Assembly: GCF_006716485.1 (NCBI RefSeq)
Contig: NZ_VFPD01000003.1
Coordinates: 1-64,000 of the forward strand
Direction: 5' to 3'
Length of the DNA: 64,000 nucleotides
From: Chryseobacterium aquifrigidense
Lineage (GTDB): Bacteria; Bacteroidota; Bacteroidia; Flavobacteriales; Weeksellaceae
Shown here: positions 45,017-53,789 of the stretch, one piece after another
How the letters are laid out: each line of letters begins with the position of its first letter
Position numbering within the stretch: position 1 is the first letter of the stretch
The notes under the pieces: generated by a model
Databases searched by the model: none
What the model saw: only the letters and a program-made list of their open reading frames with translations
What the model was told of the DNA's origin: nothing
Made by a program: the position numbers and the translations under genes

Positions 45017-45098
45017 GATTGTTGATAAATGATAATTGATGAATGATTTCTGCTTAAGCAAATTCTTGGCCATTATATCAATTATCATTTATCGCTCA
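45017..45098. repeat. heptamer array forming a 17-bp inverted repeat
   Basis: GATTGTT, GATAAAT, GATAATT, GATGAAT, GATTTCT (45017-45051) in 7-bp steps, then on the other side AATTATC, ATTTATC, GCTCATC (45080-45100). GATAAATGATAATTGAT (45024-45040) and ATCAATTATCATTTATC (45077-45093) are perfectly complementary over 17 bases with a 36-base spacer. No T-run suits a terminator for coaD or TRIC. Confidence 0.85.
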
Positions 45099-51253: not shown

Positions 51254-51261
51254 TATTTTTG
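51254..51261 (+). promoter_or_regulatory. -7 box upstream of murI
   Basis: TATTTTTG matches TAnnTTTG; a TTTG lies 26 bases upstream (51224-51227), slightly long. Predicted transcription start is near 51268, which excludes the TTG at 51259 as a start codon. Confidence 0.5.
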
Positions 51262-51279
51262 TATAAAATTTCAGCTCAT

Positions 51280-52110
51280 TTGAAAACTAAAAAACAAGAT
51301 TATTCACATCTTTCACCAGCCCAGCCTATCGGAATTTTTGATAGTGGAGTAGGAGGTCTTACCGTTGCCAAAGAAATTAAAAGACTTCTGCCTCATGAAG
51401 ACCTTATTTACTTTGGAGATACAAAGCACCTTCCTTACGGAGAAAAATCCAAGGAAGCGATTATTGAATATTCTACAAAGATCACCAATTTTCTGCTGGA
51501 GCAGAATTGTAAAGCTATTGTAATTGCCTGTAATACGGCAACAGCTAATGCTTTGAATGAAGTGATGCAGTCTGTTGCGGGAAAAGTACCTGTCATAGAC
51601 GTTATTAATCCTGTTGCTGAAAAAGTATCTTATGAAATTCACAATAATGTAGGCGTTATTGCTACCAAAGCAACTGTGAATTCCGGGTTGTATAAAAAGA
51701 GCATCAGAAAGCACAATAAGTGGATCAAAGTGGATGAACTGGCAACACCATTACTGGTTCCTGCCATTGAAGAAGGATTTAAAAACCATCCGATTACCCA
51801 TGCTATTATTTATAATTATTTAAGTAACAGTAAATTAAAAAATATTGAAACTTTGATTCTGGGCTGTACCCATTATCCTCTTTTAATAGATGAAATCAAG
51901 CAGTATTATGGAAACAGAGTCCGTGTAATAGACTCTCCGAATATTGTGGCCAATCATTTAAAAATCATTCTGGATAAGTACAACCTTTTAAATGATAACA
52001 ATCACCAGCCGAATTATCATTTCTACCTTTCAGATCTTACCAAGAATTTTGAAAAGATCTCCAAGAAGTTCTTCGGAAAAACAATTGATTTAGAATTGAA
52101 AGTATTATAA
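51280..52110 (+). CDS. murI: glutamate racemase (TTG start)
   Basis: A 276-aa enzyme making D-glutamate for peptidoglycan. The two catalytic cysteines are in VIACNTATAN (near residue 86) and LGCTHYPLL (near 197); IGIFDSGVGGLTVAKEI opens the fold. No ATG precedes the conserved region; the frame from 51259 also begins TTG but overlaps the -7 box. The TTG at 51280 gives MKTKKQDYSHL, the preferred N-terminus. Use of TTG should reduce expression. Confidence 0.92.
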   Translation: MKTKKQDYSHLSPAQPIGIFDSGVGGLTVAKEIKRLLPHEDLIYFGDTKHLPYGEKSKEAIIEYSTKITNFLLEQNCKAIVIACNTATANALNEVMQSVAGKVPVIDVINPVAEKVSYEIHNNVGVIATKATVNSGLYKKSIRKHNKWIKVDELATPLLVPAIEEGFKNHPITHAIIYNYLSNSKLKNIETLILGCTHYPLLIDEIKQYYGNRVRVIDSPNIVANHLKIILDKYNLLNDNNHQPNYHFYLSDLTKNFEKISKKFFGKTIDLELKVL

Positions 52111-52116
52111 ATAAAG

Positions 52117-52146
52117 AGTCTGCCTCATATTGAAGCAGACTTTTTT
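52117..52146 (+). terminator. murI terminator
   Basis: AGTCTGC (52117-52123) pairs with GCAGACT (52135-52141), then a T-run. Confidence 0.85.
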
Positions 52147-52189
52147 ATTAGTGTCCTTTGTGAAAGAGATTGTGAAATTTTTGTTTATG

Positions 52190-52789
52190 TTACGCCTCCA
52201 CAATTACTTTTTCAGCATTCAGCCTTTTCTTCGGATTGAATTTCGGCTGATTAGCATCCGTTTCATCTCTTTGCCCGATAGCTACGGCAAATAGGGTTTC
52301 ATAGTTTTCATTATTCAGAACAGCATCATAGCCTTCCGGTTCAATTCCTTCCATTGGAGTGGAATCTATTCCCATCGCTGCACAGGCAGACAAAAGTACG
52401 CCTAGAGATAAATATACCTGATGCCCGAGCCATGATTTTATAGCATCTTCTCCCTTTGGTTTTACCATAGTACGGTAATAATTAACAGAGCCTTCCGGTA
52501 GATTTTCTTCAATTTGTTTTTCAAAGTTTTCAATGTTTTTGATCACCTGAAAAACAATAATATGACTACTATCCAGTACTTTTTCTTTATTAAAATAAGA
52601 TTTTTCACCCAATTGCTTTTTTATTTCAGTATCATTTACGAAAATAAAATTCCATGGCTGGCTGTTAATAGATGACGGGCTTAAATTTAAAATCTCCTGA
52701 AGCGCTGCAATTTGTTCTTCACTGATTTTTCCCTGTGGATTATACTTTTTTACAGTATATCTGTTTTTCATTTTGTCTAAAAAGTTCAT
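52190..52789 (-). CDS. NAD(P)H nitroreductase-family oxidoreductase
   Basis: A 199-aa FMN-dependent enzyme of the NfsB/nitroreductase fold. It opens with MKNRYTVKKYNPQGKISEEQ, and LSPSSINSQPWNFIFV is the FMN-binding Arg/Ser/Asn region. Later, LGVLLSACAAMGIDSTPMEGI and the tail with YETLFAVAIGQRDE are typical. It reduces nitro compounds or quinones in the cytoplasm; the natural substrate is unknown. It is divergent from an HxlR regulator with a shared operator, so it is probably induced by electrophiles such as quinones. Confidence 0.92.
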   Translation of the reverse strand: MNFLDKMKNRYTVKKYNPQGKISEEQIAALQEILNLSPSSINSQPWNFIFVNDTEIKKQLGEKSYFNKEKVLDSSHIIVFQVIKNIENFEKQIEENLPEGSVNYYRTMVKPKGEDAIKSWLGHQVYLSLGVLLSACAAMGIDSTPMEGIEPEGYDAVLNNENYETLFAVAIGQRDETDANQPKFNPKKRLNAEKVIVEA

Positions 52790-52790
52790 A

Positions 52791-52874
52791 ATTTTATACT
52801 ATCATTTTTATAGTTACAAAAGTAATTTAAGTTTATTAACTTTGCAATAACGGTAAAAAATGATAGTATAAAAT
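52791..52874. promoter_or_regulatory. divergent promoter-operator with 19-bp inverted repeat
   Basis: The whole intergenic region. The arms ATTTTATACTATCATTTTT (52791-52809) and AAAAATGATAGTATAAAAT (52856-52874) are perfect 19-bp complements. Inside are the nitroreductase promoter (minus strand TTG 52847-52845, 20 bases, TACTTTTG 52824-52817) and the hxlR -7 box (TAACTTTG 52837-52844). Each arm starts about 7-11 bases past a -7 box and touches a start codon, so a bound HxlR dimer could block both. The left side also contains TACTAT-N7-ATAGTT, a dyad like those bound by YodB-type HxlR proteins. Confidence 0.75.
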
Positions 52875-53220
52875 GTATACAATAGATAATAAATCCTATC
52901 CCTGCTGTACCAGCGTTACGATGAAATTTATCGGAGGGAAATGGAAAGCAGTAATTTTACACCACCTCATTGGAGGAGCTAAGCGTTATAATGAAATAAG
53001 AAAATCCATTCCTACCATCACGGAAAGAACATTGAGTTTACAGCTAAAGCAATTGGAGGAAGACGGAATTGTTGACAGAAAAGTTTTTACAGAAAAACCT
53101 CCTTTAGTGGTAGAATATGAATTAACGGACTTTGGAAAGACGCTTTTACCTGTTTTAGAAGCTATAACAAAATGGGGTGAAGAATCTCCAGTCATATCAA
53201 AAAAAATAATCAGGAATTAA
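52873..53220 (+). CDS. HxlR-family transcription regulator
   Basis: A 115-aa winged-helix regulator. MKFIGGKWKAVILHHLIGGAKRYNEIRKSIPTITERTLSLQLKQLEEDGIV, listed by the parts GGKWKAVIL and LSLQLKQLE, is the characteristic HxlR DNA-binding region. Two adjacent cysteines near the N-terminus (YPCC, residues 10-11) match the redox-sensing Cys of YodB/HypR-type members that respond to quinones or disulfide stress. The gene is divergent from the nitroreductase and its start lies in one arm of the inverted repeat, so autorepression is likely. It overlaps rsmD by four bases at the 3' end. Confidence 0.92.
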   Translation: MYTIDNKSYPCCTSVTMKFIGGKWKAVILHHLIGGAKRYNEIRKSIPTITERTLSLQLKQLEEDGIVDRKVFTEKPPLVVEYELTDFGKTLLPVLEAITKWGEESPVISKKIIRN

Positions 53221-53789
53221 AGTTCCTGATTATCTTCTTTATTGGGTTCAAAAAAACTGAAACTTACGTTTCCGTATTTTCTGGTATCTATTAAATTGGG
53301 ATGGTCGAGCTTCATACGGCTTTGGTGCTCTACAATCAGAACGCCGTTTTCCTTCAGGTATTTATTGTTTAAAACCAGAGAAATCAGCTCATAATATTTT
53401 TTCTCTTCCATTTCAAAGGGAGCATCAGAGAAAACAATTTCAAAAGATTTATTATTTCTGAATTTTTTAAGCCAGTCAAAGACATCCCCTCTCTGTACAT
53501 TGATCTGAAGTGCCATATCTAGCTCAGAAGCAGTGGAGTTGATAAATGCGGTGTGTTTTGGATTCAGCTCTACCGAAGTAACATTCTGACAGCCTCGTGA
53601 AGCAAATTCAAAGGTAATAGAACCAATTCCTGCAAAAAGATCAAGCACAGAAATCGACTGCATATCGTATTTGTTTTCCAGAATGCTGAATAAAGCCTCT
53701 TTCGCAAAATCGGTGGTAGGTCTTACTTCAAAGTTTTTTGGAGCGGCAATTTTCTTGGCTTTCCATTTGCCTGATATTATTCTGAACAT
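53217..53789 (-). CDS. rsmD: 16S rRNA (guanine-966 N2) methyltransferase
   Basis: A 190-aa Rossmann-fold methyltransferase acting on 16S rRNA G966. RIISGKWKAKKI with FEVRPTTDFAKEALFSIL is the RsmD N-terminus; VLDLFAGIGSITFEFASRG is the SAM-binding motif I. The catalytic motif IV, normally DPPY/DPPF, reads SDAPFEM, with Ala for the first Pro. The gene converges on hxlR with a four-base overlap and is followed upstream by DUF3822 on the same strand, a common arrangement in the phylum. Confidence 0.92.
   Translation of the reverse strand: MFRIISGKWKAKKIAAPKNFEVRPTTDFAKEALFSILENKYDMQSISVLDLFAGIGSITFEFASRGCQNVTSVELNPKHTAFINSTASELDMALQINVQRGDVFDWLKKFRNNKSFEIVFSDAPFEMEEKKYYELISLVLNNKYLKENGVLIVEHQSRMKLDHPNLIDTRKYGNVSFSFFEPNKEDNQEL

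Follow-up and report, generated by a model that had tools for sequence, protein, structure and literature searches.

The intergenic region between a nitroreductase-family gene and a divergently transcribed hxlR gene of Chryseobacterium aquifrigidense (contig NZ_VFPD01000003.1, positions 1-64,000 of the forward strand; this 64,000-nt stretch is the window) very probably carries, to judge from its sequence, a conserved two-sided operator that lies between two divergent promoters and serves the adjacent HxlR protein. The operator forms part of a rigid cassette of about 70 bases composed, in order, of a dyad (O1), a -7 box, a middle half-site, an opposed -7 box, and a second dyad (O2) (Table 1).

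Table 1. Features of the cassette and its flanking genes, in window coordinates
Feature	Position	Strand	Remark
Nitroreductase-family enzyme, target gene	52190..52789	-	PF00881, E 1.7e-15
Left arm of perfect 19-bp inverted repeat	52791..52809		repeat search and shuffles
Dyad O1, ACTATC-N5-TATAGT	52798..52814		~-2 to +15 of predicted nitroreductase start
Predicted nitroreductase transcription start	52812	-	5' UTR ~23 nt; -7 box taken as -12 to -5
Nitroreductase -7 box TACTTTTG	52817..52824	-	fixed offset from O1 in 105/109 segments
Middle half-site remnant, TTAAGT	52827..52832	+	alignment columns 29-34
hxlR -7 box TAACTTTG	52837..52844	+	at canonical place in 141/171 contexts
TTG at -33 of nitroreductase promoter, beside opposing -7 box	52845..52847	-	read from sequence
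Predicted hxlR transcription start	52849	+	5' UTR 24 nt; -7 box taken as -12 to -5
Dyad O2, ACGGTA-N6-GATAGT	52850..52867		~+2 to +19 of predicted hxlR start
Right arm of perfect 19-bp inverted repeat	52856..52874		repeat search
HxlR-family regulator, 115 aa	52873..53220	+	PF01638, E 1.8e-30

Both promoters carry the Bacteroidota -7 box TAnnTTTG, located between O1 and O2, and the two opposed boxes reported by the first-pass annotation (CAAAAGTA, which is the nitroreductase box read on the plus strand, and the hxlR box) were confirmed. The predicted starts follow the placement of this box at -12 to -5 of the start in Bacteroidota (PMC9723704, PMC6847099), and a median 5' leader of 24 nt is given for F. 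psychrophilum in a passage of PMC9723704. The centre of O1 falls near -43 of the predicted hxlR start and that of O2 at about -46 of the predicted nitroreductase start, and the two centres are 52.5 bp apart, equal to five turns at 10.5 bp per turn. Sequence conservation was assessed with 50 representatives that are less than 75% identical to each other over 115 columns and that were collected with a pattern of 22 fixed positions, which took in ACTAT and ATAG from O1 plus the opening two bases of O2. Their majority sequence at the middle half-site is TATAGT, against TTAAGT in the window. The CAA that corresponds to the minus-strand TTG is invariant in 50/50 representatives, though CAA belonged to the selecting pattern; in the part of PMC6847099 that deals with F. 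johnsoniae promoters, a -33 TTG motif is much less evident.

The locus had been singled out for a perfect 19-bp inverted repeat, which we confirmed: the two 19-nt arms are 100% complementary with 46 nt between them, no other perfect inverted repeat in the 64-kb window reaches 18 bp at loops of up to 100, and the longest inverted repeat in 3000 dinucleotide shuffles of the 106-bp region was 14 bp (0/3000 above this length). The second longest perfect inverted repeat in the window (same loop limit) is one of 17 bp at 45024-45040 / 45077-45093, GATAAATGATAATTGAT. The arms had been described as touching both start codons: the right arm shares 2 nt with the hxlR ATG (52873-52875), and a single nucleotide separates the left arm from the minus-strand ATG of the nitroreductase gene (52789-52787). 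The element TACTAT-N7-ATAGTT (52797-52815), placed by the annotation within the left arm, begins inside that arm and extends 6 bp beyond it. Each arm consists of one half-site plus spacer, and both dyads run past the arm. Of the 109 unique segments between hxlR and nitroreductase genes, 9 keep the perfect 19-bp repeat and 26 a repeat of 18 bp or more, and on the first of these counts the 19-bp arms were ruled out as the operator. Failure of the arms to be conserved in relatives, named in advance as an outcome that would count against the proposal, is thus what we found for the perfect arms (9/109) and the opposite of what we found for the dyads (108/109). By sequence comparison the perfect arms are a local trait of some Chryseobacterium, and the conserved object is the two-dyad cassette.

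The regulator matches the HxlR/MarR-DUF24 family model PF01638 over residues 20-104 at 105.1 bits, compared with a cut-off of 20.8 bits, and the nitroreductase scores 136 bits against NCBIfam PRK11053, under the 227-bit cut-off of that model. The stops of hxlR and of a facing methyltransferase gene overlap within a small inverted repeat at 53210-53233 (AATCAGGAA / TTCCTGATT), possibly a terminator shared by both genes. On the other side, a hairpin-like element, AGTCTGC...GCAGACTTTTTT, at 52117-52148, between the end of a plus-strand ORF (51259-52110) and the nitroreductase gene, is likely a terminator.

For conservation, we examined 203 sequences, some of which represent one genome from two sources, in the region of their best HxlR match. 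A divergent nitroreductase was present in 140 of them, and these gave the 109 unique intergenic segments, found by protein similarity. O1 lies at a distance of exactly 47 from the CAATAACGG block in 105/109 segments in a best-match scan, and this spacing is kept in 108/109 when every O1 candidate is allowed, the one exception being a planctomycete (L097); O1 is present without mismatch in 101/109. In the 50 representatives, O1 has on average 5.28 complementary pairs of 6 and O2 has 4.14, compared with 0.78-2.70 and 0.56-1.70, respectively, after sliding the dyads by 1-3 bp, the O1 score being partly built in because ACTAT and ATAG stand in the selecting pattern. In the nitroreductase class O2 is a poor dyad (3.29/6 pairs) with a constant ACGGT half, a constancy for which a simple operator offers no explanation. 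Columns outside the selecting pattern are strong, with ATAG of the right O2 half at 98-100% and AGT of the middle half-site at 94-96%. Mean information content, some columns of which are raised by the pattern that gathered the rows, is 1.54 bits for O1, 1.31 for O2, 1.48 for the middle half-site, 1.89 for columns 47-51, 0.93 for the hxlR -7 box, 0.32 for columns 35-38, and 0.43 and 0.44 for the flanks.

The cassette was then sought across the Bacteroidota with a pattern allowing up to 2 mismatches, the reversed pattern serving as control. It was found in 27/395 genomes of the phylum (the C. aquifrigidense genome included) and 12/170 genera, with 2 matches to the reversed pattern, and in 28/199 genomes of one Flavobacteriaceae genus, with 3 reversed matches. 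Three of the phylum matches (L245, L246, L259) and one from the single genus (L285) lack both O2 and an HxlR, carry 2 mismatches, and appear to be chance matches; without them the counts are 24/395 and 27/199. These searches yielded 54 places with a locus and one further place without. An hxlR gene lies downstream within ~1.5 kb in 48/54, and ATAG of the right O2 half, which is outside the pattern, is also present in 48/54; the six places without it are the four chance matches together with L263 and L268, which have GACAG and GGCAG. Pooling of all loci, most of them fetched by HxlR similarity at the outset, gave 171 unique contexts, 165 with an HxlR downstream. Cassette-bearing genera include Chryseobacterium, Chishuiella, Flavobacterium, Aquimarina, Sphingobacterium, Siphonobacter, Emticicia, and Fulvivirga, and the families are the Weeksellaceae, Flavobacteriaceae, Sphingobacteriaceae, Cytophagaceae, Leadbetterellaceae, and Fulvivirgaceae.

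A wider regulon in the C. aquifrigidense genome was considered and rejected. ACTAT-N7-ATAGT occurs at 5 places compared with 31 for the reversed pattern, ACTAT-N6-ATAGT occurs at 4 compared with 9, and O1 plus -7 box with up to 3 mismatches gives 76 + 73 matches compared with 145 + 149. Without mismatch, O1 plus -7 box is found only as the window copy, and the right half-pattern with up to 2 mismatches only there and at C2:63065 (2 mismatches, no GATAG), with no reversed match.

The gene on the left side of the cassette is exchanged among the 171 contexts, the genes concerned being mostly redox genes. By clustering, nitroreductases account for 132 contexts, flavodoxin-fold enzymes for 17, alcohol-dehydrogenase-like enzymes for 5, proteins of ~340-365 aa for 5, NmrA-like proteins for 3, and singletons for five (two of them chance matches), and no left ORF was found in 4, again including two chance matches. 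Pfam searches of eight left-side proteins, mostly truncated, gave ADH_N (L077), Flavodoxin_2 (L086, L128), NmrA (L209), Beta_elim_lyase (L087), and PBP (L264), and no match for those of L083 and L278. We built an HxlR tree of 71 cassette rows and 9 outgroup rows, after selecting 98 representatives among the 165 HxlRs and thinning to every fifth a part of the nitroreductase rows, which are mostly Chryseobacterium. On this tree, for which the program flagged a low number of columns as well as long outgroup branches, O2 type (ACGGT or ACTAT half) changes 5 times and target type 16 times, the latter number being somewhat too high because L080 was mislabelled (SGL, where the gene is a divergent nitroreductase) and L181 was labelled unknown. 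At L181, hxlR and the cassette are present and no nitroreductase open frame of at least 110 aa starts near the cassette; the nitroreductase gene there may be disrupted.

The linked HxlR is the likely binder of the cassette, as judged by sequence correlations. Only the window copy among 13 HxlR-like matches in the C. aquifrigidense genome fits both half-patterns without mismatch. Three of the other HxlR-like genes of this genome (L002, L003, L005) have upstream motifs such as GTACTTAC or GTAAGTA, unlike the ACTAT cassette. Among the earlier loci, residue 53 of the recognition helix is Thr in 159/160 cassette HxlRs (the exception is L133) compared with 1/42 others. Residue 52 is Arg in 136/136 ACGGT-type rows, and the 25 ACTAT-type rows have Met (15), Arg (9), or Thr (1). 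Common descent, together with the physical linkage of O2 to hxlR, confounds both Thr53 and O2 type. In L263 and L268, K52/M53 accompanies ACAGT in O1 and ACTGTC in O2. At least one CTGTC/GACAG is present in the ~160 bp upstream of 16/36 non-cassette M53 loci compared with 3/159 cassette T53 loci, groups that differ in GC content and phylogeny, and the comparison is only suggestive of M53 regulators reading CTGTC. A simple M53-CTGTC code is opposed by L133, a cassette with M53 and unchanged half-sites. The regulator, the cassette, and its conservation are well supported, and the HxlR protein would bind the cassette directly.

The first-pass annotation had noted a Cys-Cys pair in the HxlR protein and a DNA element similar to sites of quinone-sensing YodB-type regulators; the pair is not a conserved feature. 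C11 of the window HxlR aligns with Cys14 of HypR, the N-terminal position of thiol-sensing HxlR proteins, and is Cys in 164/165 cassette HxlRs, the remaining row being a gap, whereas C12 is Cys in 99/165 and otherwise mostly Ser or Thr. The best match among solved structures is HypR/YybR of B. subtilis (4a5m, E 6.2e-29) and not YodB. A 2-Cys disulfide switch of the HypR kind was set aside, the position of HypR Cys49 being Ile46 in the window HxlR and Cys in 10/165 cassette HxlRs. On these alignments a one-Cys switch, through alkylation or a mixed disulfide, would be the simpler expectation, and a C11-C12 disulfide may form where both residues are present. Cys14 of HypR is S-thioallylated in B. 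subtilis (PMC6943732), and in other members of the HxlR family the equivalent Cys serves to sense thiol stress (PMC6943732, PMC8063818).

The reading we favour, at a probability of about 0.58, is a self-contained redox switch in which two HxlR dimers would together repress initiation and would be relieved by modification of Cys11. A dimer would bind each of O1 and O2, which flank the interlocked divergent promoters, such that each dyad lies over the start of one promoter and in the -43/-46 region of the other. With the dyads on the same DNA face at a distance of five turns, the two dimers could cooperate on whichever promoter holds RNA polymerase. With the switch at rest, the enzyme gene (here the nitroreductase) and hxlR would both be kept low through blocked initiation, and an electrophile or oxidant would modify the single conserved Cys11, alter binding, and allow both genes to be expressed. 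Direct binding, resting repression, and cooperativity are what we infer, and the class of inducer is taken from the family. Of the coordinate roadblock repression proposed initially, the two-sided operator is supported; the dyads, at ~-2 to +15 and +2 to +19 relative to the predicted starts, suit a block of initiation better than a roadblock to elongation.

Loci in which the hxlR promoter is degraded or moved bear on how the dyads are used. The hxlR box TAnnTTTG is off its canonical place in 30/171 contexts, four of them chance matches. The other 26 span everything from a box with one base changed (e.g., L121, L122) to its full loss, and O2 is still present in them, the left edge and spacing of O2 having belonged to the search pattern and its right half not. 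In five of the 26, hxlR lies 152-378 bp away from the CAATAAC block. Four loci (L129, L131, L134, L282) have a second half-cassette before hxlR, with an O1-like dyad exactly 39 bp ahead of the -7 box, the same offset as in the intact cassette, a degraded opposite -7 box, and no clear O2 in the slot downstream of the separate hxlR promoter; a second copy looked for before hxlR in L130 was not found. One half of these split cassettes keeps only the enzyme promoter and the other only the hxlR promoter, two half-functional copies such as a tandem duplication might leave. The retention of O2 where the hxlR box is lost, together with the 39-bp offset in the split loci, implies that each dyad probably acts on both promoters. 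The upstream dyad thus seems, on this comparative evidence, to be part of each promoter's control, which would not be expected of two roadblocks working independently. At L260, O1 and O2 stand beside a target-side gene, and the 1.5 kb downstream contain no HxlR match. A second cassette at L261 (G269:C2:132766-132819), ~13 kb from the first, adjoins another nitroreductase; it was dropped as a target without regulator, the sequence past its second half-cassette resembling a lost hxlR start, and L260 is for this reason the only clean regulator-less case.

A tentative alternative would have one regulator use the two dyads in opposite roles, blocking the promoter whose start is covered and aiding the opposite promoter, positively or cooperatively, from -43/-46; the interlocked promoters would share DNA so that one fires at a time, and the cassette with hxlR would have been placed repeatedly before unrelated detoxifying enzymes. 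The main rival, which we regard as doubtful, is a HypR-like activator, in which thiol-modified HxlR would recruit polymerase to the enzyme promoter from O2 and to the hxlR promoter from O1, the downstream dyad only tuning the level. The split loci, whose hxlR promoter keeps its upstream O1-like dyad and not a clear O2, speak for an activator, as does the right O2 half outliving degradation or loss of the canonical hxlR -7 box. Activation would also suit the closest solved relative, HypR, for which one passage of PMC6943732 has thiol modification activate the protein instead of inactivating it, although a further passage there groups HypR with repressors that modification inactivates. However, O1, which covers the predicted start of the target, is the more symmetrical dyad and the one so often free of mismatch, and its retention in L260 without a nearby regulator points to repression there.

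Binding of the cassette by a transcription factor other than the linked HxlR is improbable: the constant CAATAACGGT block is not fully accounted for by HxlR dyads, but the operator type tracks the HxlR group, and an HxlR follows all but six of the 54 pattern-found places, four of those six being the 2-mismatch matches without O2. There is very little to be said for the arms being alike merely as A-rich translation-initiation leaders, although both lie within the predicted 23-24-nt 5' UTRs and an adenine at -3 helps initiation in F. johnsoniae (PMC6847099), since the O1-O2 spacing is constant while the distance to the start codons varies, and the gene-side flanks are far less informative than the dyads even with some columns raised by the pattern. 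An invertible, phase-variable promoter segment, suggested by the inverted repeats that bracket promoters in this Bacteroidota genome and documented in Bacteroidales (PMC8748976, PMC4747536), is hardly credible for a cassette whose orientation relative to both genes is identical in 108/109 unique segments, whose arms are perfect in only 9, and which would present promoters in either orientation anyway.

The control cassette probably puts a single thiol-sensing regulator of HxlR type in charge of its own gene and of an adjoining detoxifying enzyme. Over several Bacteroidota families the promoter-operator layout and the regulator stay constant while the enzyme is swapped, and this provides a computable operator for one HxlR group, a hypothesis on specificity residues (R52/T53 versus ACTAT/ACTGT), and a clean system in which to ask if a single dyad can serve two promoters in different roles. 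We found no description of such an HxlR operator in Bacteroidota in the open-access literature searched. In Bacillota, redox enzymes paired with an HxlR regulator are known.

HxlR of B. subtilis, of the same Pfam family (solved homologue 7bze, E 4.4e-25), is an activator of formaldehyde genes acting from paired upstream sites, and we know of no divergent redox enzyme associated with it. The QsrR site, GTATA-N5-TATAC, has the same N5 and the same TATA core as the O1 consensus. YodB and QsrR are more distant in sequence (5hs7, E 1.9e-15; 4hqm, E 5.9e-10), the half-site ACTAT is not theirs, and Cys101 of YodB has no equivalent in the window HxlR, whose only Cys residues are C11 and C12. Both are HxlR/DUF24 repressors of quinone and nitro reductases, YodB (azoR1, yodC) in B. 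subtilis and QsrR in S. aureus (PMC6798810), and YodB prefers TACT[7]AGTA (PMC8063818). The YodB operator TACT-N7-AGTA is not reproduced in the cassette, O1 being related with a different half-site frame. HypR differs from the window HxlR in having Cys49, its disulfide partner, where the latter has Ile46; its target HypO is a nitroreductase in nature, and to our knowledge no two-dyad interlocked cassette has been described for it. HypR also differs in the positive action that one passage attributes to it, and it resembles the cassette regulator in that its target, the flavin oxidoreductase HypO, is a flavoenzyme (PMC6943732).
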